Of a DNA stretch of 64,000 nt, positions 1 to 62,889 are shown in pieces. Each line of letters opens with the position of its first letter. The first letter of the stretch is position 1. The stretch covers positions 91,238,697 to 91,302,696 of the forward strand of contig OX393551.1 of assembly GCA_947650365.1 (NCBI GenBank), given 5' to 3'. The notes below the pieces were generated by a model, which saw nothing but the letters and a program-made list of their open reading frames with translations, was not told the DNA's origin and searched no databases. Origin of the DNA: Chamaelirium japonicum. Taxonomy: Eukaryota > Streptophyta > Magnoliopsida > Liliales > Melanthiaceae. Position numbers and translations under genes: made by a program.

Positions 1-1428
1 ATTCATTCGTACGATCTATTCTATTTCATTCGTACAATCCATTCTTACTCAATCGTATGATCCATTCTAATCCATTCGCACAATCTATTCTAATTCATTC
101 GTACGATCCATTCTATTTCATTCGTACGATCCATTCTAATTCATACGATCCATTCTATTTCATTCATACGATCCATTTTAATTCATTCGCACGATCCATT
201 CTAATTCATTCATACGATCCATTCTAATTCATTCGTACGATCCATTCTAATTTCTTCGTATGATCTATTCTAATTCCTTCTTACGATCCATTCTAATTCC
301 TTCGTATGATCCATTCAAATTCATTCGCACGAATCTATCTATTCTAATTCATTCGTACGATCCATTCTAATTCATTCGCACGATCCATTCTAATTCATTA
401 ATACGATCCAATCTAATTCATTCATACGATCTATTCTAATTCATTCGCACGAATATATCCTTTCTAATTCATTCGTACGATCCATTCTAATTCATTCGCA
501 CAATCTATTCTAATTCATTAGTACGATCCATTCTAATTCATTCGTACGATCCATTCTAGTTCATTAGCACAATCCAAATTCATTTATCCGTACGATCTAT
601 TCTATTTCATTCGTACGATCCATTCTTATCGCACAATCCATTCTAATTCATTCGCACGATCCATTCTTCATTCTAATTCCTTCGTACGATCCATTCTAAT
701 TCCTTCGTATCCATTCTAATTCACTCATACGATCCATTCTAATTCATTCATACGATCCATTGTAATTCATTCGCATGAATGTATCCATTCTAATTCATTC
801 GTACGATCCATTCTAATTCATTCGCAGAATCTACTCTAATTCATTCATACGATCCATCCTAATTCATTCGCACGAACGTATCCATTCTAATTCATTCGTA
901 CAATCCATTCTATTTCATTCGTACGATCCATTCTTACTCATTCGTACGATCCATTCGTATCCATTCTAATTCATTCGTACGATCTATTCTAATTCATTCG
1001 TACGATCCATTCTAATTCATTAATACGATCCAATCTAATTCATTCATACGATCCATTCTAATTCATTCGTACAATCTATTCTAATTCATTCGCACGATCC
1101 ATTCTAATTCATTCGCACGATCCATTCTAATTCATTCATACGATCCATTCTAATTCATTCATACAATCCATTCTAATTCTTTTGCACGAATGTATCCATT
1201 CTAATTCATTCGTACGATCCATTCTAATTCATTCATATGATCTATTCTAATTCATTCGCATGATCCATTATAATTCATACATACGATCCAATCTAATTCA
1301 TTCGTACGATCCATTCTAATTCATTCATACGATCCAATCTAATTCATTCGTACGATCCATACTAATTCATTCGCACGAATGTATCAACTCTAATTCATTC
1401 GTACGATCCATTCTAATTCATTCATACA
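1..1428 (+). repeat. Alpha module, first copy (cut by window edge)
   Basis: A + block whose variant monomers occur in the same order as in 5,040 to about 6,200. Shared landmarks are the TTACTCAATCGTATG monomer (46-60), the short AATTCATACGATCC monomer (about 137-150), AATTTCTTCGTATG (about 249-262), the ATCCAAATTCATTTATCCG segment (571-589) and CATTCGTATCCATTC (about 952-966). The left part of the module, seen at 4,681-5,040, lies outside the window. The block ends in the junction CATACATGTACG. Confidence 0.8.
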
Positions 1429-1942
1429 TGTACGAATGAATTAGAATGGATACATTCGTGCGAATGAATTAGAATGGATCGTATGAATGAATTAGATTGG
1501 ATCGTATGCATGAATTAGAATGGATCGTGCGAATGAATTAGAATGGATCGTACGAATGAATTAGAATGGATCGAACGAATGAATTAGAATGGATACATTC
1601 GTGCAAAAGAATTAGAATGGATTGTATGAATGAATTAGAATGGATCGTGCGAATGAATTAGAATGGATCGTACGAATGAATTAGAATGGATACATTCGAA
1701 TTCATTCGTACGATCCATTCTAATTCCTTCGTACAATCCATATTCTAATTCATTCGCACGATCCATTCTAATTCGTTTGTACGATCCATTCTAATTCATT
1801 CGCACAATCTATTCTAATTCATTCGTACGATCCATTCTAATTCATTCGCACGATCCATTCTAATTCATTCATACGATCCATTCTATTTCATTCGTACGAT
1901 CCATTCTTACTCATTCGTACGATCCATTCTAATTCATTTGCA
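1429..1942. repeat. Short - block (1429-1698) then start of a + block
   Basis: The - block is only about 270 bp and ends in ACATTCGAATTCATTCG, a junction shared with 17,580, 47,515 and 59,681. The + monomers after it contain CCATATTCTAA (about 1738), a two-base expansion also found near 59,720, which suggests these two stretches share ancestry. Confidence 0.7.
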
Positions 1943-4900
1943 CGAAGGTATCCATTCTAATTCATTCGTACTATCCATTCTAATTCCTTCGTACGATCCA
2001 TTCTAATTCCTTCGTACGATCCATTCTACTTCATTCGTACGATCCATTCTAATTCATTCATACGATCCATTCTAATTCCTTCGTATGATCCATTCTAATT
2101 CATTCATACAATCCATTCTAATTCTTTTGCACGAATGTATCCATTCTAATTCATTCGTTCGATCCATTCTAATTCATTCGTACGATCAATTCTAATTCAT
2201 TCGCACGATCCATTCTAATTCATGCATACGATCCAATCTAATTCATTCATACGATCCATTCTAATTCATTCGCACGAATGTATCCATTCTAATTCATTCG
2301 TACATGTATGAATGAATTAGAATGGATCGTACGAATGAATTAGAGTTGATACATTCGTGCAAATGAATTAGAATGGATCGTATGAATGAATTAGATTGGA
2401 TTGTATGCATGAATTAGAATGGATCGTGCGAATGAATTAGAATGGATCGTGCGAATGAATTAGAATGGATCGTACGAATGAATTAGAATGGATCGTATGA
2501 ATGAATTAGATTGGATCGTATTAATGAATTAGAATGGATCGTACGAATGAATTAGAATAGATCGTACGAATGAATTAGAATGGATACGAATGGATCGTAC
2601 GAATGAGTAAGAATGGATCGTACGAATGAAATAGAATGGATTGTACGAATGAATTAGAATGGATACATTCGTGCGAATGAATTAGGATGGATCGTATGAA
2701 TGAATTAGAATAGATTGTGCGAATGAATTAGAATAGATCGTACGAAGGAATTACAATGGATTGTATGAATGAATTAGAATAGATCGTATGAATGAATTAG
2801 AATAGATCGTGCGAATGAATTAGAATGGATAGTATGAATGAAATAGAATGGATCGTATGAATTAGAATGGATTGTACGAATGAATTAGAATGGATCGTGC
2901 GTCGTACGAATGGATCATATTAATGAATTAGACTGGATCGTATGAATGAATTAGAATGGATCGTGCGAATGAATTAAAATGGATCGTACGAATGAAATAG
3001 AATGGATCGTATGAATTAGAATGGATCGTACGAATGAAATAGAATGGATCGTACGAATGAATTAGAATAGATTGTGCGAATGGATTAAAATGGATCATAC
3101 GATTTGGTAAGAATGGATTGTACGAATGAAATAGAATAGATCGTACGAATGAATTAGAATGGATCGTATAAATGAATTAGAATAGATCGTACGAATGAAT
3201 TAAAATGGATCGTATAAATGAATTAGAATGGATCGTACGAATGAGTAAGAATGGATCGTACGAATGAAATAGAATGGATCGTATGAATGAATTAGAATGG
3301 ATCGTGCGAATGAATTAGAATGGATCGTACGAATGAATTAGAATAGATTGTGCGAATGAATTAGAATGGATCGTACGAATGAATTAGAATGGATCGTACG
3401 AATGAATTAGAATGGATCGTACGAATGAATTAGAATGGATCGTGCGAATGAATTAGAATTGATCGTACGAATGAATTAGAATGGATCGTACGAATGAATT
3501 AGAATGGATCGTTCGAATGAATTAGAATAGATTGTGCGAATGAATTAGAATGGATCGTACGAATGAATTAGAAAGGATACATTCGTGCGAATGAATTAGA
3601 ATGGATCGTATGAGTGTGAATGAATTAGAATGGATCGTGCGAATGAATTAGAATGGATCGTATTAATGAATTAGAATGGATCGTGCGAATGAATTAGAAT
3701 GGATCGTACGAATGAGTAAGAATGGATTGTGCGAATGAATTAGAATGGATCATATGAATGAATTAGAATGAATCGTATGAATGAATTAGAATGGATCGTG
3801 CGAATAAATTAGAATGGATCGTATGAATGAATTAGAATAGATTGTGCGAATGAATTAGAATGGATCGTACGAATGAATTTGAATGGATACATTCGTGCGA
3901 ATGAATTAGAATAGATCATGCGAATGAATTAGAATGGATCGTCCGAATGAATTAGAATGGATCGTACGAATGAAATAGAATGGATTGTACGAATGAGATA
4001 GAATGGATCGTACGAATGAATTAGAATGGATACATTCATGCGAATGAATTAGAATGGATCATACGAATAAATTAGAATGGATTCATTCGTGCGAATGAAT
4101 TAGAATGGATCGTACGAATGAGTAAGAATGGTTCGTACGAATGAATTAGAATGGGTTGAATTAGAATGAATCGTACGAATGAATTAGAATGGATCGTACG
4201 AATGAATTAGAATGGATTGAATTAGAATGAATTGTACGAATGAATTAGAATGAATCATACCGTACGAATGAATTAGAATGGATCATACGAAGGAATTAGA
4301 ATGGATCGTACGAATGAATTAGAATGGATTGTACGAAGGAATTAGAATGGATCGTACGAAGGAATTATAATGGATAGTACGAATAAATTAGAATGGATAC
4401 CTTCGTGCAAATGAATTAGAATGGATCGTACGAATGAGTAAGAATGGATCGTACGAATGAAATAGAATGGATCGTATGAATGAATTACAATAGATCGTGC
4501 GAATGAATTAGAATGGATCGTACGAATGAATTAGAATAGATTGTGTGAATGAATTAGAATGGATCGTACGAATGAATTAGAATGGATCGTACGAATGAAT
4601 TAGAATGGATCGTATGAATGAATTAGAATGGATCGTGCGAATGAATTAGAATGGATCGTACGAATGAAATAGAATGGATTCGCACGAATGTATCCATTCT
4701 AATTCATTCGTTCGATCCATTCTAATTCATTCGTACAATCCATTCTAATTCATTCGCACGATCCATTTGCATTCACTCAAACGATCCATTCTAATTCATT
4801 CATATGATCCATTCTAATTCATTCGCACGAATGTATCCATTCTAATTCATTCGTACGATCCATTCTAATTCATTTGTACGAATGTATCCACCCTAATTCA

Positions 4901-5040: not shown

Positions 5041-5249
5041 TCATTTGTACGATCTATTCTATTTCATTCGTACAATCCATTCTTACTCAATCGTATGATC
5101 CATTCTAATCCATTCGCACAATCTATTCTAATTCATTCGTACGATCCATTCTATTTCATTCGTATGATCCATTCTAATTCATACGATCCTTTCTATTTCA
5201 TTCATACGATCCATTTTAATTCATTCGCACGATCCATTCTAATTCATTC

Positions 5250-7846: not shown

Positions 7847-10680
7847 ACGAATGAGTAAGAATGGATCGTACGAATGAATTAGAATGGATCGTACGAATGA
7901 ATTAGAATAGATTGTGCGAATGAATTAGAATGGATCGTACGAATGAATTAGAATTGATCGTACGAATAAGTAAGAATGGATCGTACGAATGAAATAGAAT
8001 GGATCGTATGAATGAATTAGAATGGATCGTGCGAATGAATTAGAATGGATCGTACGAATGAATTAGAATAGATTGTGCGAATGAATTAGAATGGATCGTA
8101 CGAATGAATTAGAATGGATCGTACGAATGAATTAGAATGGATCGTATGAATGAATTAGAATGGATCGTGCGAATGAATTAGAATAGATCGTACGAATGAA
8201 ATAGAATGGATTCGCACGAATGTATCCATTCTAATTCATTCGTACGATCCATTCTAATTCCTTCGTATGATCCATTCTAATTCATTCGTACGGTATGATT
8301 CATTCTAATTCATTAATACGATCCAATCTAATTCATTCATACGATCCATTCTAATTCATTCGTACGATCCATTCTAATTCATTCGCACGATCCATTCTAA
8401 TTCATTCGCACGATCCATTCTAATTCATTCATACGATCCATTCTAATTCATTCGTACGATCCATTTTAATTCATTCGCACGATCCATTCTAATTCATTCG
8501 CACGAATATATCCATTCTAATTCATTCGTATGATCCATTCTAATTCATTCACACGATCCATTCTAATTCATTCATACAATCCATTCTATTTCTTTTGCAC
8601 GAATGTATCCATTCTAATTCATTCGTACGATCCATTCTATTTCATTCGTACGATCCATTCTAATTCATTCGTACAATCCATTCTAATTCATTCGCACGAT
8701 CTATTCGAATTCATTTGCACGAATGTATCCACTCTAATTCATTCATACGATCCATTCTAATTCCTTCGTACGATCCATTCTATTTCGTTCGTATGATCCA
8801 TTCTATTTCATTCATATAATCCATTCTAATTCATTCGCACGACGAAAGAGATAGAATGGATCGTACGAATGAATTAGAATGGATACATTCATGCGAATGA
8901 ATTAGAATGGATCATACGAATGAATTAGAATGGATTCATTCGTGCGAATGAATTAGAATGGATCGTATGAATGAATTAGAATGGATCGTGCGAATGAATT
9001 AAAATGGATCGTATGAATGAAATAGAATGGATCGTATGAATTAGAATGGATCGTATGAATGAAATAGAATGGATCGTACGAATGAAATAGAATAGATTGT
9101 GCGAATGGATTAGAATGGATCATACGATTGAGTAAGAATGGATTGTACGAATAAAATAGAATAAATCATACGAATGAATTAGAATGGATCATGCTAACGA
9201 ATTAGAATGGATCGTTCGAATGAATTAGAATAGATTGTGCGAATGAATTAGAATGGATGGTACGAATGAATTAGAAAGGATACATTCGTGCGAATGAATT
9301 AGAATGGATCGTATGAGTGTGAATGAATTAGAATGGATCGTGCGAATGAATTAGAATGGATCGTATTAATGAATTAGAATCGATTGAATTAGAATGAATC
9401 GTATGAATGAATTAGAATGGATCGTATGAATGAATTAGAATGGATCGTACGAAGGAATTAGAATGGATAGTACGAATGAATTAGAATGGATACCTTCGTG
9501 CAAATGAATTAGAATGGATCGTACGAATGAGTAAGAATGGATCGTACGAATGAAATAGAATGGATCGTATGAATGAATTAGAATGGATCGTGCGAATGAA
9601 TTAGAATGGATCGTACGAATGAATTAGAATAGATTGTGCGAATGAATTAAAATGGATCGTACGAATGAATTAGAATGGATCGTACGAATGAATTAGAATG
9701 GATCGTATGAATGAATTAGAATGGATCGTGCGAATGAATTAGAATGGATCGTACGAATGAAATAGAATGGATTCGCACGAATATATCCATTCTAATTCAT
9801 ACGTACGAATGTATCCATTCTAATTCATTCATACGATCCATTCTAATTCATTCGCACGAATGTATCCATTCTAATTCATTCGTACGAATGTATCCACTCT
9901 AATTCATTCATACGATCCATTCTAATTCATTCGCACGAATGTATCCATTCCAATTCATTCGTACGATCCATTCTAATTCATTCGCACAATCTATTCTAAT
10001 TCATTCGTACGATCAATTCTAATTCATTAGCATGATCCATTCTAATTCATTTGTACGATCTATTCTATTTCATTCGTACAATCCATTCTTACTCAATCGT
10101 ATGATCCATTCTAATCCATTCGCACAATCTATTCTAATTCATTGGTACGATGCATTCTATTTCATTCGTACGATCCATTCTAATTCATTCGTATGATCCA
10201 TTCTAATTCATTCGCACGATCCATTCTAATTCATTCGCACGAATGTATCCATTCTAATTCATTCGTATGATCCATTCTAATTCATTCACACGATCCATTC
10301 TAATTCATTCATACAATCCATTCTATTTCATTTGCACGAATGTATCCATTCTAATTCATTTGTACGACCCATTCATAAGTATGAATGAATTAGAATGGAT
10401 CATGCTAATGAATTAGAATTGATCGTACGAATGAATTAGAATAGATTGTGCGAATGAATTAGAATGGATCGTACGAATGAATTGGAATGGATACATTCTT
10501 GCGAATGAATTAGAATGGATCGTATGAATGAATTAGAGTGGATACATTCGTACAAATGAATTAGATTGGATCGTACGAATGAATTAGAATGGATCGTACG
10601 AATGAATTAGAATGGATTGAATTAGAACGAATCGTACGAATGAATTAGAATGGATCGTACGAATGATATAGAATGGATCG
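7847..10680. repeat. Mixed short blocks between alpha copies
   Basis: Six blocks of roughly 300-930 bp. The + blocks 8211-8842 and 9772-10376 begin with GGATTCGCACGAATG-type junctions. The switch at 8842 is unusual: CGCACGACGAAAGAGATAG, with a partial monomer. The switch at 10376 also contains a partial monomer, CGACCCATTCATAAG. Parts of the - block 8843-9771 (about 9040-9180) are reverse-complement matches to the left part of alpha. Confidence 0.75.
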
Positions 10681-13510
10681 TACGAATGAATTAGAATGGA
10701 TTGAATTAGAATGAATCATACGAATGAATTAGAATGAATCATACCGTACGAATGAATTAGAATGGATCATACGAAGGAATTAGAATGGATCGTACGAATG
10801 AATTAGAATGGATCGTACGAAGGAATTAGAATGGATCGTACGAAGGAATTAGAATGGATAGTACGAATGAATTAGAATGGATACCTTCGTGCAAATGAAT
10901 TAGAATGGATCGTACGAATGAGTAAGAATGGATCGTACGAATGAAATAGAATGGATCGTATGAATGAATTAGAATGGATTGTGCGAATGAATTAGAATGG
11001 ATCGTACGAATGAATTAGAATGGATCGTACGAATGAATTAGCATGGATCGTACGAATGAATTAGAATGGATCGTGCGAATGAATTAGAATGGATCGTACG
11101 AATGAAATAGAATGGATTCACACGAATGTATCCATTCTAATTCATTCGTACGATCCATTCTAATTCATTCGTACAATCCATTCTAATTCATTCGCACGAT
11201 CCATTCGCATTCACTCAAACGATCCATTCTAATTCATGCATATGATCCATTCTAATTCATTCGCACGAATGTATCTATTCTAATTCATTCGTACGATCCA
11301 TTCTAAATCATTTGTACGAATGTATCCACTCTAATTCATTCATACGATCCATTCTAATTCATTCGCACGAATGTATCCTTTCCAATTCATTCGTACGATC
11401 CATTCTAATTCATTCGCACAATCTATTCTAATTCATTCGTACGATCAATTCTAATTCATTAGCATGATCCATTCTAATTCATTCGTACGATCTATTCTAT
11501 TTCATTCGTACAATCCATTCTTACTCAATCGTATGATCCATTCTAATCCATTCGCACAATCTATTCTAATTCATTCGTACGATCCATTCTATTTCATTCG
11601 TACGATCCATTCTAATTCCTACGATCCATTCTATTTCATTCATACGATCCATTTTAATTCATTCGCACGATCCATTCTAATTCATTCATACGATCCATTC
11701 TAATTTATTCGTACGATCATTCTAATTTCTTCGTATGATCCATTCTAATTCCTTCGTACGATCCATTCAAATTCATTCGCACGAATCTATCCATTCTAAT
11801 TCATTCGTACGATCCATTCTAATTCATTCGCACTATCCATTCTAATTCATTAATACGATCCAATCTAATTCATTCATACGATCTATTCTAATTCATTCGT
11901 ACGAATATATCCTTTCTAATTCATTCGTACGATCCATTCTAATTCATTCGCACAATCTATTCTAATTCATTAGTACGATCCATTCTAATTCATTCGTACG
12001 ATCCATTCTAATTCATTAGCACGATCCAAATTCATTTATCCGTACGATCTATTCTATTTCATTCATACGATCCATTCTTATCGCACGATCCATTCTAATT
12101 CATTCGCACGATCCATTCTCCATTCTAATTCCTTCGTACGATCCATTCTAATTCCTTCGTATCCATTCTAATTCACTCATACGATCCATTCTAATTCATT
12201 CATACGATCCATTCTAATTCATTCGCATGAATGTATCCATTCTAATTCATTCGTACGATCCATTCTAATTCATTCGCACAATCTATTCTAATTCATTCAT
12301 ACGATTCATCCTAATTCATTCGCACGAATGTATCCATTCTAATTCATTCGTACGATCCATTCTTACTCATTCGTACGATCCATTCGTATTCATTCTAATT
12401 CATTCGTACGATCTATTCTAATTCATTCGTACGATCCATTCTAATTCATTAATATGATCCAATCTAATTCATTCATACGATCCATTCTAATTCATTCGTA
12501 CGATCCATTCTAATTCATTCGCACGATCCATTCTAATTCATTCGCACGATCCATTCTAATTCATTCATACGATCCATTCTAATTCATTCGTACGATCCAT
12601 TCTAATTCTTTCGTAAGATCCAATCTAATTCATTCATACGATCCATTCTAATTCTTTCGCACGAATGTATCCATTTTAATTCATTCATACGATCCATTCT
12701 AATTCATTCGTACGATACATTCTAATTCATTCGCACGATCCATTCTAATTCATTCGCACGATCCATTCTAATTCATTCATACAATCCATTCTAATTCATT
12801 CGTACGATCCATTCTAATTCATTCGTATGTCCAATCTAATTCATTCATACGATCCATTCTAATTCTTTTGCACGAATGTATCCATTCTAATTCATTCGTA
12901 CGATCCATTCTAATTCATTAGCACGAAAAAACACGATCCACTCACATACGAATAAATTAGAATGAATTAGAATGGATTGTGTGAATGAAATTGATCGTAC
13001 GAATGAATTAGAATAGATTGTGAGAATGAATTAGAATGGATCGTACGAATGAATTGGAATGGATCGTACGAATGAATTAGAATGGATAGTACGAATGAAT
13101 TATAATGGATACATTCATGCGAATGAATTAGAATGGATCGTATGAATGAATTAGAATGGATCGTATGAGTGAATTAGAATGGATACGAAGGAATTAGAAT
13201 GGATCGTATGAAGGAATTAGAATGGAGAATGGATCGTGCAAATGAATTAGAATGGATCGTACGAATGAAATAGAATAGATCGTACGGATAAATGAATTTG
13301 GATCGTGCTAATGAATTAGAATGGATCGTACGAATGAATTAGAATGGATCGTACTAATGAATTAGAATAGATTGTGCGAATGAATTAGAATGGATCGTAC
13401 GAATGAATTAGAAAGGATATATTCGTGCGAATGAATTAGAATAGATCGTATGAATGAATTAGATTGGATCGTATTAATGAATTAGAAAGGATCGTGCGAA
13501 TGAATTAGAA
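10570..13510 (+). repeat. ~2.95-kb tandem unit A1
   Basis: A composite unit made of a - part (to 11,118), a + alpha block (11,119-12,945) and a - part. The landmark GGATTGAATTAGAACG at 10,614 recurs at 13,535 (offset 2,921). By 11,464 the offset is 2,967, because the second unit has two extra monomers near 13,930-13,975. The + part near 12,010-12,180 and the - part near 13,170-13,320 are mutual inverted copies, so each unit can fold back on itself. Confidence 0.82.
12921..12950 (+). repeat. A6 junction element, copy 1
   Basis: CACGAAAAAACACGATCC followed by ACTCACATACG, placed exactly at a + to - switch. The A6 run is not derivable from the monomer by single changes. Confidence 0.85.
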
Positions 13511-16480: not shown

Positions 16481-17712
16481 GATCGTACGAATGAATTAGA
16501 ATGGATAGATTCGTGCGAATGAATTTGAATGGATCGTACGAAGGAATTAGAATGGATCGTACGAAGGAATTAGAATAGATCATACAAAGAAATTAGAATG
16601 GATCGTACGAATGAATTAGAATGGATCGTATGAATGAATTAGAATGGATCGTGCGAATGAATTAAAATGGATCGTATGAATGAAATAGAATGGATCGTAT
16701 GAATTAGAATGGATCGTACGAATGAAATAGAATGGATCGTACGAATGAATTAGAATAGATTGTGCGAATGGATTAGAATGGATCATACGATTGAGTAAGA
16801 ATGGATTGTACGAATGAAATAGAATAGATCGTACGAATGAATTAGAATGGATCATGCTAATGAATTAGAATTGATCGTACGAATGAATTAGAATAGATTG
16901 TGCGAATGAATTAGAATGGATCGTACGAATGAATTGGAATATGGATCGTACGAAGGAATTAGACTGGATAGTACGAATGAATTAGAATGGATACCTTCGT
17001 GCAAATGAATTAGAATGGATCATACGAATGAGTAAGAATGGATCGTACGAATGAAATAGAATGGATCGTATGAATGAATTAGAATGGATCGTGCGAATGA
17101 ATTAGAATGGATCGTACGAATAAATTAGAATAGATTGTGCGAATGAATTAGAATGGATCGTACGAATGAATTAGAATGGATCGTACGAATGAATTAGAAT
17201 GGATCGTATGAATGAATTAGAATGGATCGTGCGAATGAATTAGAATGGATCGTGCGAATGAATTAGAATGGATCGTACGAATGAATTATAATGGATACAT
17301 TCGTGCGAAAGAATTGATAGTACGAATGAATTAGAATGGATCGTACGAATGAGTAAAAATGGATCGTGCGAATGAATTAGAATGGATCGTACGCAATGAA
17401 TTAGAATGGATCGTACGAATGAATTAGAATGGATCGTATGAATGAAATAGAATGGATCGTACGAATGAATTAGAATGGATCGTGCGGATGAATTAGAATG
17501 GATCGTACGAATGAATTAGAATGGATCGTACGAAGGAATTAGAATGGATCGTACGAATGAATTAGAAAGGATACATTCGAATTCATTCGTACGATCCATT
17601 CTAATTCCTTCGCACGATCCATTCTAATTCATTCGCACGATCTATTCTAATTCATTCATACGATCCATTCTAATTCATTCACACAATCCATTCTAATTCA
17701 TTCTAATTTATT

Positions 17713-17742
17713 CGTATGTGAGTGGATCGTGTTTTTTCATGC
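17713..17742 (-). repeat. A6 junction element, copy 3 (inverted)
   Basis: Reverse complement (GATCGTGTTTTTTCATGC), again at a + to - switch. This means the whole junction neighbourhood was inverted, not only the element. Confidence 0.85.
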
Positions 17743-18551
17743 TAATGAATTAGAATGGATCGTACGAATGAATTAGGAAGGATACATTCGTGCGAAAGAA
17801 TTAGAATGGATCGTATGAATGAATTAGATAGGATCGTATAAATGAATTAGAATAGATCGTACGAATGAATTAGAATGGATCGTGCTAATGAATTAGAATG
17901 GATCGTGCGAATGAATTAGAATGGATCGTGCGAATGAATTAGAATGGATCGTACGCAATGAATTAGAATGGATCGTACGAATGAATTAGAATGGATCGTA
18001 CGATCCATTCTAATTCATTCGTACGATCCATTCTAATTCATTCTCACTATCTATTCTAATTCATTCGTACGATCCATTCTAATTCATTCGCACGATGCAT
18101 TCTAATTCATTCGCACGATGCATTCTAATTCATTCTCACTATCTATTCTAATTCATTCGTACGATCCATTCTAATTCATTCGTACGATTCATTCTAATTC
18201 AATCCATTATAATTCATTCGTACGATCCATTCTTACTCATTCGTACGATCCATTCTAATTCATTCGCACGAATGAATCCATTCTAATTCATTCGTATGAT
18301 CCATTCTAATTCATTCGCATGAATGTATCCATTCTAATTCATTCGTACGATCCATTCTATCTCATTCGTACAATCCATTCTATTTCATTCGTATGATCCA
18401 TTCTAATTCATTCGCACGATCCATTCTAATTTATTCGCATGATCCATTCTAATTTATTCGTATGATCCATTCTAATTCATTCATACGATCCATTCTAATA
18501 CATTCATATGATCCATTCTAATTCATTCATACGATCCATTCTAATTCATTA

Positions 18552-18581
18552 GTACGAAAAAACACGATCCACTCACATACG
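18552..18581 (+). repeat. A6 junction element, copy 4
   Basis: GTACGAAAAAACACGATCC variant (GTACG instead of GCACG) at the + to - switch near 18,578. Confidence 0.85.
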
Positions 18582-46425: not shown

Positions 46426-47648
46426 CGTACGAAGGAATTAGAATGGATAGATTCGTGCGAATGAATTTGAATGGATCGTACGAAGGAATTAGAATGGATC
46501 GTACGAAGGAATTAGAATAGATCATACAAAGAAATTAGAATGGATCGTACGAATGAATTAGAATGGATCGTATGAATGAATTAGAATGGATCGTGCGAAT
46601 GAATTAAAATGGATCATATGAATGAAATAGAATGGATCGTATGAATTAGAATGGATCGTACGAATGAAATAGAATGGATCGTACGAATGAATTAGAATAG
46701 ATTGTGCGAATGGATTAGAATGGATCATACGATTGAGTAAGAATGGATTGTACGAATGAAATAGAATAGATCGTACGAATGAATTAGAATGGATCATGCT
46801 AATGAATTAGAATTGATCGTACGAATGAATTAGAATAGATTGTGCGAATGAATTAGAATGGATCGTACGAATGAATTGGAATATGGATCGTACGAAGGAA
46901 TTAGACGTACGAATGAATTAGAATGGATACCTTCGTGCAAATGAATTAGAATGGATCGTACGAATGAGTAAGAATGGATCGTACGAATGAAATAGAATGG
47001 ATCGTATGAATGAATTAGAATGGATCGTGCGAATGAATTAGAATGGATCGTACGAATAAATTAGAATAGATTGTGCGAATGAATTAGAATGGATCGTACG
47101 AATGAATTAGAATGGATCGTACGAATGAATTAGAATGGATCGTATGAATGAATTAGAATGGATCGTGCGAATGAATTAGAATGGATCGTGCGAATGAATT
47201 AGAATGGATCGTACGAATGAATTATAATGGATACATTCGTGCGAAAGAATTGATAGTACGAATGAATTAGAATGGATCGTACGAATGAGTAAAAATGGAT
47301 CGTGCGAATGAATTAGAATGGATCGTACGCAATGAATTAGAATGGATCGTACGAATGAATTAGAATGGATCGTATGAATGAAATAGAATGGATCGTACGA
47401 ATGAATTAGAATGGATCGTGCGGATGAATTAGAATGGATCGTACGAATGAATTAGAATGGATCGTACGAAGGAATTAGAATGGATTGTACGAATGAATTA
47501 GAAAGGATACATTCGAATTCGTTCGTACGATCCATTCTAATTCCTTCGCACGATCCATTCTAATTCATTCGCACGATCTATTCTAAGTCATTCATACGAT
47601 CCATTCTAATTCATTCACACAATCCATTCTAATTCATTCTAATTTATT

Positions 47649-47678
47649 CGTATGTGAGTGGATCGTGTTTTTTCATGC
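47649..47678 (-). repeat. A6 junction element, copy 8 (inverted)
   Basis: Counterpart of copy 3, with the same CATGC ending. Confidence 0.85.
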
Positions 47679-48487
47679 TAATGAATTAGAATGGATCGTA
47701 CGAATGAATTAGGAAGGATACATTCGTGCGAAAGAATTAGAATGGATCGTATGAATGAATTAGATAGGATCGTATAAATGAATTAGAATAGATCGTACGA
47801 ATGAATTAGAATGGATCGTGCTAATGAATTAGAATGGATCGTGCGAATGAATTAGAATGGATCGTGCGAATGAATTAGAATGGATCGTACGCAATGAATT
47901 AGAATGGATCGTACGAATGAATTAGAATGGATCGTACGATCCATTCTAATTCATTCGTACGATCCATTCTAATTCATTCTCACTATCTATTCTAATTCAT
48001 TCGTACGATCCATTCTAATTCATTCGCACGATGCATTCTAATTCATTCGCACGATGCATTCTAATTCATTCTCACTATCTATTCTAATTCATTCGTACGA
48101 TCCATTCTAATTCATTCGTACGATTCATTCTAATTCAATCCATTATAATTCATTCGTACGATCCATTCTTACTCATTCGTACGATCCATTCTAATTCATT
48201 CGCACGAATGAATCCATTCTAATTCATTCGTATGATCCATTCTAATTCATTCGCATGAATGTATCCATTCTAATTCATTCGTACGATCCATTCTATCTCA
48301 TTCGTACAATCCATTCTATTTCATTTGTATGATCCATTCTAATTCATTCGCACGATCCATTCTAATTTATTCGCATGATCCATTCTAATTTATTCGTACG
48401 ATCCATTCTAATTCATTCATACGATCCATTCTAATTCATTCATATGATCCATTCTAATTCATTCATACGATCCATTCTAATTCATTA

Positions 48488-48517
48488 GTACGAAAAAACA
48501 CGATCCACTCACATACG
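48488..48517 (+). repeat. A6 junction element, copy 9
   Basis: Counterpart of copy 4, keeping its GTACG variant. Confidence 0.85.
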
Positions 48518-51500
48518 AATAAATTAGAATGAATTAGAATGGATTGTGTGAATGAATTAGAATGGATCGTATGAATGAATTAGAATGGATCGTGCGAATG
48601 AATTAGAATGGTTCGTGCGAATGAATTAGAATATGGATCGTACGAAGGAATTAGAATGGATCGTACAAATGAATTCGAATGTATCCTTTCTAATTCATTC
48701 GTACGATCCATTCTAATTCCTTCGTACGATCCATTCTAATTCATTCATACGGTCCATTCTAATTCATTCGCACGATCCATTCTAATTCATTCGTACGATC
48801 CATTCTATTTCATTCATACGATCCATTCTAATTCGTTCATACGATCCATTCTAATTCCTTCGTACGATCCATTCTAATTCATTCGTACGATCCATTCTTA
48901 CTCAATCGTACGTATGAATGAATTAGAATGGATCGTGCGAATGAATTAGAATGGATTATATGAATGAAATAGAATGGATCATACGAATGAAATAGAATGG
49001 ATCGTACGAAGGAATTAGAATGGATCGTATGAATGAATTAGAGTGGATACATTCGTGCGAATGAATTCGAATAAATCATGCGAATGAATTAGAATGGATT
49101 GTACGAATGAATTAGAATGGATCGTACGAATGAAATAGAATGGATCGTACGAATGAATTAGAATGGATACATTCGTGCAAAAGAAATAGAATTGATTGTA
49201 TGAATGAATTAGAATGGATCGTGTGAATGAATTAGAATGGATCATACGAATGAAATAGAATGGATACATTCGTGCGAATGAATTCGAATGGATCGTGCGA
49301 ATGAATTAGAATGGATCGTACGAATGAATTAGAATGGATCGTATGAATGAATTAGAATGGATCGTGCGAATGAATTAGAATGGATCGTGCGAATGAATTA
49401 GAATGGATCGTATGAATGAATTAGATTGGATCGTATTAATGAATTAAAATGGATCGTACGAATGAATTAGAATAGATCGTACGAATGAATTAGAATGGAT
49501 ACGAATGGATCGTACGAATGAGTAAGAATGGATCGTACGAATGAAATAGAATGGATTGTACGAATGAATTAGAATGGATACATTCGTGCGAATGAATTAG
49601 GATGGATCGTATGAATGAATTAGAATAGATTATGTGAATGAATTAGAATGGATCGTACGAATGAATTAGAATGGATACATTCATGCGAATGAATTAGAAT
49701 GGATCATATGAATGAATTAGAATGGATCGTATGAGTGAATTAGAATGGATACGAAGGAATTAGAATGGATCGTACGAAGGAATTAGAATGGAGAATGGAT
49801 CATGCAAATGAATTAGAATGGATCGTGCGATAAGAATGGATCGTACGAATGAAATGGAATAGATCGTACGGATAAATGAATTTGGATCGTGCTAATGAAT
49901 TAGAATGGATCGTACGAATGAATTAGAATGGATCGTACGAAGGAATTAGAATGAATTAGAATGGATCGCACGAAGGTATCCATTCTAATTCATTCGTACT
50001 ATCCATTCTAATTCCTTCGTACGATCCATTCTAATTCCTTCGTACGATCCATTCTAATTCATTCGTACGATCCATTCTAATTCATTCATACGATCCATTC
50101 TAATTCCTTCGTATGATCCATTCTAATTCATTCATACAATCCATTCTAATTCTTTTGCACGAATGTATCCATTCTAATTCATTCGTTCGATCCATTCTAA
50201 TTCATTCGTACGATCCATTCTAATTCATTCGCACGATCCATTCTAATTCATGCATACGATCCAATCTAATTCATTCATACGATCCATTCTAATTCATTCG
50301 CACGAATGTATCCATTCTAATTCATTCGTACATGTATGAATGAATTAGAATGGATCGTACGAATGAATTAGAGTTGATACATTCGTGCAAATGAATTAGA
50401 ATGGATCGTATGAATGAATTAGATTGGATCGTATGCATGAATTAGAATGGAACGTGCGAATGAATTAGAATGGATCGTGCGAATGAATTAGAATGGATCG
50501 TACGAATGAATTAGAATGGATCGTATGAATGAATTAGATTGGATCGTATTAATAAATTAGAATGGATCGTACGAATGAATTAGAATAGATCGTACGAATG
50601 GATTAGAATGGATACGAATGGATCGTACGAATGAGTAAGAATGGATCGTACGAATGAAATAGAATGGATTGTACGAATGAATTAGAATGGATACATTCGT
50701 GCGAATGAATTAGGATGGATCGTATGAATGAATTAGAATAGATTATGCGAATGAATTAGAATAGATCGTACGAAGGAATTACAATGGATTGTATGAATGA
50801 ATTAGAATAGATCGTATGAATGAATTAGAATGGATCGTGCGAATGAATTAGAATGGATAGTATGAATGAAATAGAATGGATCGTATGAATTAGAATGGAT
50901 TGTATGAATGAATTAGAATGGATCGTGCGAATGAATTAAAATGGATTGTATGAATGAAATAGAATGGATCGTATGAATTAGAATGGATCGTACGAATGAA
51001 ATAGAATGGATCGTACGAATGAATTAGAATAGATTGTGCGAATGGATTAGAATGGATCATACGATTGAGTAAGAATGGATTGTACGAATGAAATAGAATA
51101 GATCGTACGAATGAATTAGAATGGATCGTATGAATGAATTAGAATAGATCGTACGAATGAATTAAAATGGATCGTATAAATGAATTAGAATGGATCGTAC
51201 GAATGAGTAAGAATGGATCGTACGAATGAAATAGAATGGATCGTATGAATGAATTAGAATGGATCGTGCGAATGAATTAGAATGGATCGTTTGAATGAAT
51301 TAGAATAGATTGTGCGAATGAATTAGAATGGATCGTACGAATGAATTAGAATGGATCGTACGAATGAATTAGAATGGATCGTGCGAATGAATTAGAATTG
51401 ATCGTACGAATGAATTAGAATGGATCGTACGAATGAATTAGAATGGATCGTTCGAATGAATTAGAATAGATTGTGCGAATGAATTAGAATGGATCGTACG

Positions 51501-54500
51501 AATGAATTAGAAAGAATACATTCGTGCGAATGAATTAGAATGGATCGTATGAGTGTGAATGAATTAGAATGGATCGTGCGAATGAATTAGAATGGATCGT
51601 ATTAATGAATTAGAATGGATCGTGCGAATGAATTAGAATGGATCGTACGAATGAGTAAGAATGGATCGTGCGAATGAATTAGAATGGATCATATGAATGA
51701 ATTAGAATGAATCGTATGAATGAATTAGAATGGATCGTGCGAATAAATTAGAATGGATCATATGAATGAATTAGAATAGATTGTGCGAATGAATTAGAAT
51801 GGATCGTACGAATGAATTAGAATGGATACATTCGTGCGAATGAATTAGAATGGATCGTATGAATGAATTAGAATCGATCGTACGAATGAATTAGAATGGA
51901 TCATGCGAATGAATTAGAATGGATCGTGCGAATGAATTAGAATGGATCGTACGAATGAAATAGAATGGATTGTACGAATGAGATAGAATGGATCGTACGA
52001 ATGAATTAGAATGGATACATTCATGCGAATGAATTAGAATGGATCATTCGAATAAATTAGAATGGATTCATTCGTGCGAATGAATTAGAATGGTTCGTAT
52101 GAATGAGTAAGAATGGATCGTACGAATGAATTAGAATGGATTGAATTAGAATGAATCGTACGAATGAATTAGAATGGATCGTACGAATGAATTAGAATGG
52201 ATTGAATTAGAATGAATCGTACGAATGAATTAGAATGAATCATACCGTACGAATGAATTAGAATGGATCATACGAAGGAATTAGAATGGATCATACGAAT
52301 GAATTAGAATGGATCGTACGAAGGAATTAGAATGGATCGTACGAAGGAATTATAATGGATAGTACGAATAAATTAGAATGGATACCTTCGTGCAAATGAA
52401 TTAGAATGGATCGTACGAATGAGTAAGAATGGATCGTACGAATGAAATAGAATGGATCGTATGAATGAATTAGAATGGATCGTGCGAATGAATTAGAATG
52501 GATCGTACGAATGAATTAGAATAGATTGTGCGAATGAATTAGAATGGATCGTACGAATGAATTAGAATGGATCGTACGAATGAATTAGAATGGATCATAT
52601 GAATGAATTAGAATGGATCGTGCGAATGAATTAGAATGGATCGTACGAATGAAATAGAATAAATTCGCACGAATGTATCCATTATAATTCATTCGTACGA
52701 TCCATTCTAATTCATTCGTACAATCCATTCTAATTCATTCGCACGATCTATTCGCATCCACTCAAACGATCCATTCTAATTCATTCATATGATCCATTCT
52801 AATTTATTCGCACGAATGTATCCATTCTAATTCATTCGTACGATCCATTCTAATTCATTTGTACGAATGTATCCACTCTAATTCATTCATACGATCCATT
52901 CTAATTCATTCGCACGAATGTATCCATTCCAATTCATTCGTACGATCCATTCTAATTCATTCGCACAATCTATTCTAATTCATTCGTTCGATCAATTCTA
53001 ATTCATTCGTACTATCCATTCTAATTCATTCGCACAATCCATTCTAATTCATTCATACAATCCATTCTAATTCATTCGTACGATCCATTCTAATTCATTC
53101 GTACGATCCATTCTAATTCATTCGCACGAATGTATCCATTCCAATTCATTCGTACGATCCATTCTAATTCATTCGCACGATCCATTATAATTCATTAATA
53201 CGATCCAATCTAATTCATTCATACGATCTATTCTAATTCATTCGCACGAATATATCCTTTCTAATTCATTCGTACGATCCATTCTAATTCATTCGCACAA
53301 TCTATTCTAATTCATTCGTACGATCCATTCTAATTCATTCGTACGATCCATTCTAATTCATTAGCACGATCCAAATTCATTTATCCGTACGATCTATTCT
53401 ATTTCATTCGTACGATCCATTCTTATCGCACGATCCATTCTAATTCATTCGCACGATCCATTCTCCATTCTAATTCCTTCGTACGATCCATTCTAATTCC
53501 TTCGTATCCATTCTAATTCACCCATACGATCCATTCTAATTTATTCATACGATCCATTCTAATTCATTCGCATGAATGCATCCACTCTAATTCATTCGTA
53601 CGATCCATTCTAATTCATTCGCACAATCTATTCTAATTCATTCATACGATCCATCCTAATTCATTCGCACGAATGTATCCATTCTAATTCATTCGTACAA
53701 TCCATTCTATTTCATTCGTACGATCCATTCTTACTCATTCGTACGATCCATTCGTATCCATTCTAATTCATTCGTACGATCTATTCTAATTCATTCGTAC
53801 GATTCATTCTAATTCAATCCATTCTAATTCATTCGTACGATCCATTCTAATTCATTCATATTAGAATGGATCGTACGAATGAGTAAGAATGGATCGTATG
53901 AATGAAATAGAATGGATCGTATGAGTGAATTAGAATGGTTCGTGCGAATGAATTAGAATGGATCGTACGAATGAATTAGAATAGATTGTGCGAATGAATT
54001 AGAATGGATCGTACGAATGAATTAGAATCGATTGTACGAATGAATTAGAATGGATCAAGCGAATGAATTAGAATGGATCATGCGAATGAATTAGAATGGA
54101 TCATACGAATGAAATAGAATGGATTGTACGAATGAGATAGAATGGATCGTACGAATGAATTAGAATGGATACATTCATGCGAATGAATTAGAATGGATCA
54201 TACGAATGAATTAGAATGGATTCATTCGTGCGGATGAATTAGAATGGATCGTACGAATGAGTAAGAATGGATCGTACGAATGAATTAGAATGGATTGAAT
54301 TAGAATGAATCGTACGAATGAATTAGAATGGATCGTACGAATGAATTAGAATGGATCGTATGAATGAATTAGAATGGATTGAATTAGAATGAATTGTACG
54401 AATGAATTAGAATGAATCATACCGTACGAATGAATTAGATTGGATCATACGAAGGAATTAGAATGGATCGTACGAATGAATTAGAATGGATCGTACGAAT

Positions 54501-57500
54501 GAATTAGAATGGATCGTACGAAGGAATTAGAATGGATCGTACGAAGGAATAAGAACAGATAGTACGAATGAATTAGAATGGATACCTTCGTGCAAATGAA
54601 TTAGAATGGATCGTACGAATGAGTAAGAATGGATCGTACGAATGAAATAGAATGGATCGTATGAATGAATTAGAAAGGATTGTGCGAATGAATTAGAATG
54701 GATCGTACGAATGAATTAGAATGGATCATGCGAATGAATTAGAATGGATCGTACGAATGAATTAGAATAGATTGTGCGAATGAATTAGAATGGATCGTAC
54801 GAATGAATTAGAATGGATCGTACGAATGAATTAGAATGGATCGTACGAATGAATTAGAATGGATCGTATGAATGAATTAGAATGGATCGTACGAATGAAT
54901 TAGAATGGATCGTAGAATGAATTAGAATGGATCGTGCGAATAAATTAGAATGGATCGTATGAATGAATTAGAATAGATTGTGCAAATGAAATATAATGGA
55001 TTGTACGAATGAGATAGAATGGATCGTACGAATGAATTATAATGGATACATTCATGCTAATGAATTAGAATGGATCATACGAATGAATTAGAATGGATTC
55101 ATTCGTGCGAATGAATTAGAATGGATCGTACGAATGAGTAAGAATGGATCGTACGAATGAATTAGAATGGATTGAATTAGAATGAATCGTACGAATGAAT
55201 TAGAATAAATCGTTCGAATGAATTAGAATGGATCGTACGAATGAATTAGAATGGATTGAATTAGAATGAATCGTACGAATGAATTAGAATGAATCATACC
55301 GTACGAATGAATTAGAATGGATCGTACAAAGGAATTAGAATGGATCGTACGAATGAATTCGAATGTATCCTTTCTAATTCATTCGTACGATCCATTCTAA
55401 TTCCTTCGTACGATCCATTCTAATTCATTCGTACGATCCATTCTAATTCATTCGCACGATCCATTCTTATTCATTCGTACGATCCATTATATTTCATTCA
55501 TACGATCCATTCTAATTCATTCGCACGATCCATTCTAATTCATTCATACGATCCATTCTATTTCATTCGTACGATCCATTCTTACTCATTCGTACGATCC
55601 GTTCTAATTCATTTGCACGAAGGTATCCATTCTAATTCCTTCGTACGATCCATTCTAATTCCTTCGTACGATCCATTCTAATTCATTCGTACGATCCATT
55701 CTAATTCATTCGTACAATCCATTCTAATTCCTTTGTACGATCCATTCTAATTCATTCATACGATCCATTCTAATTCATTCGTACGATCTATTCTATTTCA
55801 TTCATACGATCCATTCTAATTCAATAATACGATCCATTCTAATTCATTCGCACGATCCATTCTAATTCATTCACACTCATACGATCCATTCTAATTCATT
55901 CGTACGAATGAATTAGAGTGGATACATTCGTACAAATGAATTAGAATGGATCGTATGAATGAATTAGAGTGGATACATTCGTACAAATGAATTAGAATGG
56001 ATTGTACGAATGAATTAGAATGGATACATTCGTGCGAATGAATTAGAATGGATCATATGAATGAATTAGAATGGATCGTTTGAGTGAATGCGAATGGATT
56101 GTGCGAATGAATTAGAATGGATTGTACGAATGAATTAGAATGGATCGTACGAATGCATTAGAATGGATACATTCGTGCGAATCCATTCTATTTCATTCGT
56201 ACGATCCATTCTAATTCATTCGCACGATCCATTTTAATTCATTCATACGATCCATTCTAATTCATTCGTACGATCCATTCTAATTCATTCGTACGATCCA
56301 TTCTAATTCATTCGCACGATCTATTCTAATTCATTCGTACGATCCATTCTAATTCATTCGCACGATCCATTTTAATTCATTCATACGATCCATTCTATTT
56401 CATTCGTACGATCCATTCTTACTCATTCGTACGATCCATTCTAATTCATTTGCACGAAGGTATCCATTCTAATTCATTCGTACTATCCATTCTAATTCCT
56501 TCGTACGATCCATTCTAATTCCTTCGTACGATCCATTCTAATTCATTCGGACGATCCATTCTAATTCCTTCGTATGATCCATTCTAATTCATTCGTACGG
56601 TTTGATTCATTCTAATTCATTCGTACGATTCATTCTAATTCAATCCATTCTAATTCATTCGTACGATCCATTCTAATTCATTCGTACGATCCATTCTAAT
56701 TCATTCGTACGATTCATTCTAATTCATTAGAATGGATCGTACGAATGAATTAGAATGGATTGAATTAGAATGAATCGTACGAATGAATTAGAATGGATCG
56801 TACGAATAAAATAGAATGGATCGTACGAATGAATTGGAATAGATACATTCGTGCGAATGAATTAGAATGGATCGTATGAATGAATTAGAGTGGCTATATT
56901 CGTACAAATGAATTAGAATGGATCGTGCAAATGAATTAGAATGGATCGTGCGAATGAATTAGAATGGATCGAACGAATGAATTAGAATGGATCGTATGAA
57001 TGAATTAGATTGGATCGTATTAATGAATTAGAATGGATCGTGCAAATGAATTAGAATGGATCGTACGAATGAATTAGAATGGATCGTACGAATGACTTAG
57101 AATGGATCGTTCGAATGAATTAGAATAGATTATGCGAATGAATTAGAATGGATCGTACGAATGAATTAGAAAGGATACATTCGTGCGAATGAATTAGAAT
57201 GGATCGTATGAGTGTGAATGAATTAGAATGGATCGTACGAATGAATTAGAATGGATCGTATTAATGAATTAGAATGGATCGTGCGAATGAATTAGAATGG
57301 ATCGTACGAATGAGTAAGAATGGATCGTGCGAATGAATTAGAATGGATTGTACGAATGAATTAGAATGGATCGTACGAATGAATTAGAATGGATACATTC
57401 GTGCGAATCCATTCTATTTCATTCGTACGATCCATTCTAATTCATTTGCACGATCCATTCTAATTCATTTGCACGATCCATTCTAATTCATTTGCACGAT

Positions 57501-58973
57501 CCATTCTAATTCATTCGTACGATCCATTCTAATTCATTCGTACGATCCATTCTAATTCATTCGCACAATCTATTCTAATTCATTCGCACGATCCATTCTA
57601 ATTCATTCATACGATCCATTCTATTTCATTCGTACGATCCATTCTTACTCATTCGTATGATCCATTCTAATTCATTTGCACGAAGGTATCCATTCTAATT
57701 CATTCGTACTATCCATTCTAATTCCTTCGTACGATCCATTCTAATTCCTTCGTACGATCTATTCTAATTCATTCGCACGATCCATTCTAATTCATTCATA
57801 CGATCCATTCTATTTCATTCGTACGATCCATTCTTACTCAATCGTACGATCCATTCTAATTCATTTGCACGAAGGTATCCATTCTAATTCATTCGTACTA
57901 TCCATTATAATTCCTTTGTACGATCCATTCTAATTCATTCGTACGATCCATTCTAATTCATTCGTACGATCCATTCTAATTCCTTCGTATGATCCATTCT
58001 AATTCATTCGTACGGTATGATTCATTCTAATTCATTCGTACGATTCATTCTAATTCAATCCATTCTAATTCATTCGTACTATCCATTCTAATTCATTCGT
58101 ACGATCCATTCTAATTCATTCGTACGATTCATTCTAATTCAATCCATTCTAATTCATTCGTATGATCCATTCTTACTCATTCGTACGATCCATTCTAATT
58201 CATTCGCACGAATGAATCCATTCTAATTCATTCGTATGATCCATTCTAATTCATTAGAACGAATGTATCCATTCTAATTCATTCGTACGATCCATTCTAT
58301 CTCATTCGTACAATCCATTCTATTTCATTCGTATGATCCATTCTAATTCATTCGCATGATCCATTCTAATTCATTCGCATGATCCATTCTAATTCATTCG
58401 TACGATCGATTCTAATTCATTCATACGATCCATTCTAATTCATTCATATGATCCATTCTAATTCATTCGCACGATCCATTCTTACTCATTCGTACGATCC
58501 ATTCTAATTCATTCGCACGATCCATTCTAATTCATTAATACGATCCATTCTAATTCATTCGCACGATCCATTCTAATTCATTCACACTCATACGATCCAT
58601 TCTAATTCATTCGCACGAATGTATCCTTTCTAATTCATTCGTACGATCCATTCTAATTCATTCGCACAATCTATTCTAATTCATTCGAACGATCCATTCT
58701 AATTCATTCGTACGATCCATTCTAATTCATTCGCACGATCCATTCTAATTCATTCGCACGATCCATTTTAATTCATTAGCACGATCCATTTTAATTCATT
58801 CGTACGATCCATTCTAATTCATTTATACGATCCAATCTTATTCATTCATACGATCCATTCTAATTCATTCGCACGAATGTATCCATTCAAATTCATTCGT
58901 ACGATCCATTCTAATTCATTCGCACGATCCATTCTAATTCATTCGTACGATCCATTCTATTTCATTTATACGA

Positions 58974-60740
58974 TCCATTCTAATTCATTCATACGATCTA
59001 TTCTAATTCTTTCGCACGAATGTATCCATTCTAATTCATTCGTACGATCCATTCTAATTCATTCGCACGATCCATTCTAATTCATTCATACAATCCATTC
59101 TAATTCTTTTGCACGAATGTATCCATTCTAATTCATTCGTTCGATCCATTCTAATTCATTCGTACGATCCATTCTAATTCATTCGCACGATCCATTCTAA
59201 TTCATTCATACGATCCATTCTAATTCATTCGTACGATCCATTCTAATTCATTCGTACGATCCATTCTAATTCATTCGCACAATCTATTCTAATTCATTCG
59301 TACGATCCATTCTAATTCATTCGCACGATCCATTCTAATTCATTCATACGATCCATTCTAATTCATTCGTACCATCCATTCTAATTCATTGGCACGAATG
59401 TATCCATTCTAATTCATTCGTACGATCCACTCTAATTCATTCGCACAATCTATTCTAATTCATTCGTATGATCCATTCTAATTCATTCGCACGAATGTAT
59501 CCATTCTAATTCATTCGTACGATCCATTCTAATTCATTCGTACGAATGAATTAGAATGGTACGAATGAATTAGAATGGATCGTGCGAATGAATTAGAATG
59601 GATCGTACGAATGAATTAGAATGGATCGTACGAAGGAATTAGAATGGATCGTACGAATGAATTAGAAAGGATACATTCGAATTCATTCGTACGATCCATT
59701 CTAATTCCTTCGTATGATCCATATTCTAATTCATTCGCACGATCCATTCTAATTCATTCATACGATCCATTCTAATTCATTCACACAATCCATTCTAATT
59801 CATTCTAATTTATTCGTATGTGAGTGGATCGTGTTTTTTCGTGCTGATGAATTAGAATGGATCGTACGAATGAATTAGAATGGATACATTCGTGCGAAAG
59901 AATTAGAATGGATCGTATGAATGAATTAGATTGGATCGTATAAATGAATTAGAATGGATCGTACGAATGAATTAGAATGGATCGTGCGAATGAATTAGAA
60001 TGGATCGTGCGAATGAATTAGAATGGATCGTACGAATGAATTAGAATGGATCGTTCGAATGAATTAGAATGGATCGTACGAATGAATTAGAAAGGATACA
60101 TTCGTGCGAATGAATTAGAATGGATCGTATGAGTGTGAATAAATTAGAATGGATCGTGCGAATGAATTAGAATGGATCGTATTAATGAATTAGAATGGAT
60201 CGTGCGAATGAATTAGAATGGATCGTACGAATGTGTAAGAATGGATCGTGCGAATGAATTAGAATGGATCATATGAATGAATTAGAATGGATCGTATGAA
60301 TGAATTAGAATGGATCGTGCGAATAAATTAGAATGGATCGTATGAATGAATTAGAATAGATTGTGCGAATGAATTAGAATGGATCGTACGAATGAATTAG
60401 AATGGATACATTCGTGCGAATGAATTAGAATGGATCGTATGAATGAATTAGAATCGATCGTATGAATGAATTAGAATGGATCATGCGAATGAATTAGAAT
60501 GGATCGTGCAAATGAATTAGAATGGATCGTACGAATGAAATAGAATGGATTGTACGAATGAGATAGAATGGATCGTGTGAATGAATTAGAATGGATCATA
60601 TGAATGAATTAGAATGGATCATATGAATGAATTAGAATGGATCGTGCAAATAAATTAGAATGGATCGTATGAATGAATTAGAATAGATTGTGCGAATGAA
60701 TTAGAATGGATCGTACGAATGAATTAGAATGGATAGATTT
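58974..60740. repeat. Terminal satellite blocks before the retrotransposon
   Basis: + to 59,543, a 138-bp - block, a 135-bp + block, then - (59,817-60,740) up to the LTR. The last block has a run like 21,540-22,030 and 3,560-3,980 (GAAAGGATACATTCG followed by GTATGAGTGTGAATG). Monomers near the end are no more degenerate than those inside, so the array seems interrupted rather than decaying at its edge. Confidence 0.78.
59815..59844 (-). repeat. A6 junction element, copy 10 (inverted)
   Basis: Inverted copy beyond the 18.3-kb repeat, ending CGTGC then TGATGAATTAG. It marks the last + to - switch before the retrotransposon. Confidence 0.85.
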
Positions 60741-61290: not shown

Positions 61291-61302
61291 GGGCCGGCCT
61301 AC

Positions 61303-62886: not shown

Positions 62887-62889
62887 GGT

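Follow-up and report, generated by a model that had tools for sequence, protein, structure and literature searches.

We analyzed a 64,000-nucleotide stretch of the Chamaelirium japonicum genome (hereafter the window; C3:91238697-91302696, contig OX393551.1), most of which is filled by a short-monomer satellite whose repeats reverse strand 65 times. The reversals occur at few junction types that are used again and again, and copies of these types stand in both orientations, with shared flanks, inside one array that also carries tandem duplications. Most probably (probability about 0.7), a few founding switches were spread by duplication and ectopic recombination and were flipped by recombination between plus and minus blocks. 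The array is very probably the Chio1/Chio2 centromere satellite of Chionographis japonica, as judged from features described for that satellite rather than from a deposited monomer. Published work already describes Chio as having a ‘frequently alternating orientation’ (PMC12722358), and therefore the strand-switching satellite itself is known and unremarkable for this species. The reuse of junction sequences in both orientations, apparently by inheritance, adds a new layer.

Alternating orientation in the satellite array

A two-state strand hidden Markov model (HMM), using monomer 9-mers and their reverse complements, divides window positions 1-60735 into 66 blocks separated by 65 switches. 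The count is stable at switch probabilities of 1e-3, 1e-4 and 1e-6 and rises to 71 at 1e-2. A 46-state phase HMM, run separately, likewise places 65 switches in the window. Chance or a model artefact as the source of the switches is ruled out by a control in which all minus blocks were turned to plus, as 0 switches are found once the blocks share one direction. A sequence-only reading of the window had proposed a 23-bp satellite that switches strand about 65 times in 60 kb, in blocks with a mean near 1 kb and a minimum of about 30 bp. Both parts of this description are borne out, with block lengths under the two-state model averaging 920 bp (median 601.5) and ranging from 25 to 3239 bp. The satellite ends at about position 60734, and a sequence resembling a long terminal repeat (LTR) begins at 60743.

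The alternating architecture goes on through the 200 kb to the left of the window (L001-L020, C3:91038697-91238696). A three-state model finds 213 switches in 220,047 satellite bases, window array included, a total from which about 10 class-1 window switches (see below for classes) are missing; this corresponds to 0.97 switches per kb of satellite across 260 kb of C3. The phase model counts 221 switches in the same 260 kb. The left array is broken by non-satellite pieces of 8.7, 28.6 and 2.4 kb. On contigs C1 and C2, five stretches of 5-10 kb each, picked for holding a class-0 junction, contain 10, 4, 10, 8 and 21 switches, and longer blocks are also present there (for example, 2643 bp in L025). 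In genome-wide counts, which cover 1,518,659,071 bases in 3253 contigs, a plain satellite 34-mer occurs 661,101 times forward and 668,600 times in reverse.

Tandem Repeats Finder (TRF) reports a 23-bp period, and 23 is also the commonest spacing (835 intervals). TRF additionally reports a 28-bp unit, GTACGAATGAATTAGAATGAATCATACC, that is five bases longer than the 23-bp unit and carries one substitution. A spacing of 28 is found in 123 intervals, 20 Chio2-like 24-mers are present (14 forward, 6 reverse), and the consensus unit contains the 9-mer TTCGTACGA. Spot probes of 400 bp taken across C3 89.5-92.2 Mb are satellite in 19 of 20 cases, the exception lying at 89.5 Mb, and therefore place the window inside a megabase-scale unit. 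Chio1 and Chio2 are described as CENH3-associated repeats with 23- and 28-bp monomers that differ by a 5-bp deletion and a 1-bp substitution; their arrays are megabase-scale, mix forward and reverse repeats, and include a reported higher-order cluster, CL73 (PMC10264360). The 9-mer is named as a Chio feature elsewhere (PMC12722358). The window shares with Chio1/Chio2 the 23-bp monomer, the 28-bp variant, the 9-mer, the mixed forward and reverse arrays and the megabase scale. We infer a centromere role for the window, the CENH3 data themselves coming from PMC10264360.

Junction classes and their copies

When the 60-mers around the 65 switches are grouped at 88% linkage, they form 16 junction classes, a number that varies with the threshold (6 at 85%, 17 at 90% and 20 at 93%). 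The largest classes have 20, 10, 9, 5, 4 and 4 members, and 29 of the 32 plus-to-minus junctions fall into two of them. Class 0, the largest, has 14 forward and 6 reverse members in the window, 13 of which match a 29-mer pattern exactly. Class-1 junctions (12945, 15913, 18576 and others) carry a six-A run (GAAAAAACACG) that is foreign to the monomer.

Flanks were compared 30-150 bp past the junction for classes 0, 1, 2, 3 and 5, which together account for 48 of the 65 switches, against a background with a mean of 0.846 and a 95% point of 0.92. Many same-class pairs have flanks that are alike at 0.93-1.00, and these include copies in opposite orientation. In class 0, a left flank is common to 17 of the 20 members (mostly 0.88-1.00, with single pairs down to 0.83), and a right flank is common to 12 at ≥0.96, three of them in reverse orientation (26193, 29318 and 56170). 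All flank pairs of class 5 lie above the 95% point. Flank sharing in the window is partly due to a duplication at an offset of about 30 kb; the class-0 flanks are also common to the 200 kb on the left.

The two copies of this duplication (Table 1) are identical at 99.1% of 18,313 aligned columns, a value that does not count 24 gap events (595 bases). Nineteen pairs of switches, or 38 of the 65, occur in equal class order and at corresponding positions in both copies, while a 20th switch at the extreme end of copy 1 (28995) has no partner in copy 2. The 65 switches are therefore not independent, and most of them do not represent separate events. Within copy 1, a 2.97-kb higher-order unit is partly repeated from 14096, and in copy 2 it appears from 41093 (2.95 kb) and again from 44038. 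Overall, direct copies of ≥95% identity and ≥150 bp span 95.6% of the array, and inverted copies span 94.1%. Around a perfectly palindromic switch at 18000, the junction classes are mirrored (2,1,6,1,2; window 17574-18746). The arms at this switch are 0.91 identical over 200 bp, and the mirrored order suggests an older inverted duplication.

Shared junctions extend well past the window. Among loosely defined copies in the 260 kb of C3, there are 64 of class 0 (34 forward, 30 reverse), 17 of class 1 (12 forward, 5 reverse) and 32 of class 2 (12 forward, 20 reverse). For all three classes, similarity is raised for about 150-250 bp on each side of the junction and falls to 0.73-0.82 further out. 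Copies in opposite orientation are about as similar to each other as are copies in the same orientation. For classes 0, 1 and 2, left-flank values are 0.930 versus 0.936, 0.914 versus 0.914 and 0.886 versus 0.885, and right-flank values are 0.900 versus 0.897, 0.870 versus 0.883 and 0.870 versus 0.870 (400 sampled pairs each for classes 0 and 2, all 136 pairs for class 1).

Exact copies are abundant genome-wide, with 12,460 of the class-0 29-mer (6239 forward, 6221 reverse), 1,450 of class 1 (749 forward, 701 reverse) and 4,411 of class 2 (2184 forward, 2227 reverse), and backward-read control patterns gave 0 matches genome-wide for each of the three classes. The junction sequences are found on at least three large contigs. 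Among the matches listed, classes 0 and 2 lie on C1 and C2 and class 1 lies on C2 and C3; no class-1 match on C1 is among those listed. The listed matches suggested that class-0 junctions on C2 all point in one direction, a pattern that is ruled out by the C2 sequence, which holds both orientations. The list of class-0 places is therefore incomplete.

In this part of C3, the 29-mer reliably marks a switch. Each of its 48 exact copies across the 260 kb has a plus-to-minus switch no more than 30 bp away, a proximity shared by 2.65% of 2000 positions picked at random from the first 100 kb. Junctions also recur in pairs. On C2, among the matches listed, 17 of the 30 class-1 sites that allow the comparison lie 136-166 bp from a class-2 site, and the two junctions always stand in one mirror relation; in 1000 random shifts, the number of such sites averaged 0.85 and never exceeded 6. 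The pairing is also found in the window, at 17574/17719 and, inverted, at 18576/18746.

Breakpoint phases point in the same direction. The 221 switches in the 260 kb fall into 43 phase-pair classes, and uniform phases would be expected to give 182 (minimum 166 in 500 draws). Simulated random switches passed through the same phase model gave 174 classes. The five commonest classes hold 145 of the 221 switches.

Table 1. Coordinates of the features discussed, counted from the first nucleotide of the window
Feature	Position	Strand	Remarks
Chio1/Chio2-like satellite array, monomer GAATGAATTAGAATGGATCGTAC, alternating orientation, 65 switches	1..60734	.	Repeat finding, two HMMs, one-direction control
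Class-0 plus-to-minus junction, example, AGAATGGATTCGCACGAATGTATCCATTC	4671..4699	+	
Duplication copy 1, 19 switches with partners in copy 2	10383..28996	+	Offset 29.94-29.98 kb
Duplication copy 2, 19 matching switches	40367..58973	+	99.1% identical to copy 1, aligned columns
2.97-kb higher-order unit with two switches (class 0, then class 1)	11129..14096	+	
Two-junction cassette, class 2 + class 1	17574..17719	-	Inverted copy at 18576-18746
Two-junction cassette, class 1 + class 2	18576..18746	+	Opposite to 17574-17719
Near-perfect fold-back palindrome around switch 40047	39538..40568	.	498-bp arms, 99.0%
LTR-like repeat (TGTTGG...CTAACA), Ty1/copia-type retroelement interrupting the array	60743..62875	-	
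Open frame with RVT_2 (Ty1/copia-type reverse transcriptase)	62893..63999	-	Runs past window end

At the array edge, the first 1.2 kb of the LTR-like repeat has a 98.4% match in L026 (6800-8000), about 16 kb further on. Satellite resumes at C3:91320000, beyond the retroelement interruption (window 60743-64000, minus strand).

Origin of the orientation switches

We infer both the founding mechanism and the recombination route from the patterns above. A limited number of founding events would have joined plus and minus arrays, perhaps when DNA near the TTCGTACGA dyad was repaired after a break or copied with a switch of template. Segments bearing these junctions would then have been copied tandemly, in steps of 2.97 kb and about 30 kb, by unequal exchange, and between units or chromosomes by ectopic recombination or conversion; non-allelic gene conversion has been proposed (PMC12722358). 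The homology of plus and minus blocks, which lie inverted to each other, makes flips between them possible. A crossover or conversion between opposite blocks would invert the DNA in between and create no new switch, since by the logic of such an exchange plus is joined to plus and minus to minus. Flipping of this kind would explain why the main junctions now stand in both directions.

Several observations weigh against this account. At the 88% threshold, 65 random array 60-mers link into 5 components. Because random 60-mers link too, junction classes drawn from single linkage alone were judged insufficient, and it is flanks and phases that carry the case for inheritance. Of class-0 pairs, only 55% on the left and 36% on the right lie above the background 95% point, the corresponding values being 49% and 31% for class 1, 58% and 31% for class 2, and 40% and 60% for class 3. 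Three of the 20 class-0 members (19982, 49977 and 37511) do not have the common left flank (0.65-0.84, except for 37511 against 57396 at 0.90) and may have arisen separately. The inverted pieces next to the 12 exact class-0 copies in the stretches from C1 and C2 (L021-L025) measure just 7-136 bp (≤65 bp in 9 of the 12), whereas the minus blocks that class 0 adjoins in the window mostly run to hundreds or thousands of bases. These stretches rule out a reading of the 29-mer totals as counts of block-scale switches; the totals therefore count junction sequences. A micro-inversion may have given rise to the class-0 junction and been lengthened afterwards, or the change may have run the other way. 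Since contigs are oriented arbitrarily, the balanced forward and reverse totals say little about flipping, and the telling evidence is the mixture of both orientations inside one array. In addition, the very probable species identity is founded on described features in place of an alignment to a deposited Chio monomer. Lastly, 38 of 86 class endpoints lie in phases of the CGTACG dyad (p = 0.0049 versus 7/23; p = 0.0015 versus 28.6% in simulation), in a test whose phase-pair classes may not be independent. With this breakpoint preference, recurrence at a sequence hot spot is conceivable.

Such recurrence, in which a hairpin at the TTCGTACGA dyad breaks and rejoins inverted repeatedly and with no shared descent, is an unlikely source of the pattern. 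It would agree with the endpoint excess, which is only moderate and is consistent with published work suggesting hairpin formation and breakage at the 9-mer (PMC12722358), and with the three class-0 members that stand apart from the common flank. It does not readily explain why flank variants up to about 150-250 bp from the junction are common to both orientations, why the odd class-1 sequence with its six-A run recurs as an exact match 1,450 times, or why two-junction cassettes keep a near-fixed spacing. Breakpoints do not appear to be exact palindrome centres either, as loop sizes of the 43 phase-pair classes, judged informally, have no clear excess of small values. An assembly or fold-back read artefact is the least probable explanation of all. 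Fold-back reads would give nearly identical arms, but mean arm identity equals background, with 0.839 versus 0.839 for 400-bp arms (27 junctions), 0.844 versus 0.849 for 200-bp arms (50 junctions) and 0.852 versus 0.846 for 100-bp arms (61 junctions). At 100 bp, 8 of the 61 junctions do exceed the background 95% point (0.921), a proportion that drops to 1 of 50 at 200 bp and 0 of 27 at 400 bp. The one case at 200 bp, switch 40047 (0.979), is the single switch with strikingly similar long arms (498 bp at 99.0%) and may be either an artefact or an inverted duplication of recent origin. With this possible exception, arm identity rules out fold-back reads for nearly all switches. Moreover, 19 switches are kept in two diverged copies, junction sequences are present thousands of times genome-wide, and the published C. 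japonica assembly, which is based on HiFi reads, is also reported to have alternating architecture (PMC10264360). The possibility raised in the sequence-only reading, that the switches stem from assembly or fold-back reads, is thus contradicted by the sequence, both by mean arm identity at background level and by the recurrence of junctions on other contigs.

The remaining alternatives give the switches a function. That they act through fold-back RNA and small RNAs is highly improbable. RNA transcribed across a switch is predicted to fold far more stably than RNA from within a block, with a mean of -246.8 kcal/mol for 400-nt RNAs across 50 switches (200-bp arms) and -70.9 kcal/mol for 50 within-block stretches. 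The capability for fold-back proposed in the sequence-only reading is therefore real as a folding prediction, but the published data, as far as they were accessible, do not support it. CENH3 chromatin and the transcriptome are negatively correlated (r = -0.50), and the low, gene-like CHH methylation of Chio repeats does not fit strong RNA-directed methylation (PMC10264360). It is also rather unlikely that switches and cassettes form a selected architecture, retained because CENH3 loading or the folding of chromatin is aided by hairpins or cruciforms, a role that has been proposed for the macro-dyads of the beetle Tribolium madens (PMC13081366). Selection might account for the conservation of junctions in thousands of copies and for that of inversion sites in an unrelated animal (PMC13081366). 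It might also account for junction bins that are the most alike or tied (class 0, 0.965; class 1, 0.956-0.958; class 2, 0.926-0.936). The class-0 value exceeds that of the right neighbor (0.893), and the values of classes 1 and 2 lie somewhat above those of their neighbors. However, the class-0 junction bins are barely above the next left bin (0.960), and similarity in junction bins is favored in any case because the copies were chosen on their core. Furthermore, the sister species Chamaelirium luteum is described as having consistently oriented centromere arrays (PMC12722358); a satellite centromere therefore does not need switching. The alternating pattern more probably arose as a side effect of recombination in a satellite prone to hairpins than as a device kept for fold-back RNA.

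Relation to other satellites

Shared junction classes are a detail added here to what is described for Chio1/Chio2. We found no description of them in the literature covered, which included the accessible parts of two Chionographis papers. In the sister genus, Chamaelirium luteum has a CENH3-associated satellite, Chama, that also contains the 9-mer TTCGTACGA but has a 60-bp monomer and, unlike the window, consistently oriented arrays (PMC12722358). Orientation reversals and higher-order repeats inside arrays, as in the window, are also reported for human HSatII, GSATII and alpha satellite and for maize CentC. HSatII has one large inversion in a 70.7-kb array and GSATII has ‘complex multiple inversions’, given without a count, in a 121-kb array (PMC2588610). 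Live human alpha satellite arrays have a single inversion (PMC9549924), and CentC has a marked junction of two arrays (PMC4806543). The available portions of these reports mention no density of switches approaching one per kb.

The closest parallel is found in the conserved satellite inversion sites of Tribolium, the only genus in which satellite macro-dyads have so far been documented according to the authors of that work (PMC13081366). T. madens has 2044 INV_1a and 3486 INV_1b inversion sites, conserved at 98.9% and 98.2%, respectively (PMC13081366). The beetle satellites TmSat1 and TmSat2 and the window array are alike in their alternating direct and inverted subarrays and in having conserved inversion sites in thousands of copies. 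The intermingling of a major and a minor satellite can be counted as a further likeness. Conserved inversion sites in many copies are thus found in both systems, but class 0 on C1 and C2 adjoins short pieces only. The beetle element is about 110 bp long and mostly forms two subarrays per array, whereas the plant repeat is 23 bp long, and in place of two roughly symmetric inverted subarrays the window has 66 unequal blocks of 25-3239 bp. It is doubtful that the same device, namely a few both-orientation cassettes with thousands of copies that keep arrays alternating in strand, evolved independently in a plant holocentromere and in beetle pericentromeres. If it did, cassette flipping or hairpins would be part of how centromere DNA spreads or is recognized. 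The junctions described here offer countable, apparently heritable markers with which to trace the copying of centromere DNA between units and chromosomes during holocentromere spread. They also place a plant example beside the conserved Tribolium inversion sites, which opens to testing the question of whether sites of this kind are under selection or are simply carried along in copying.

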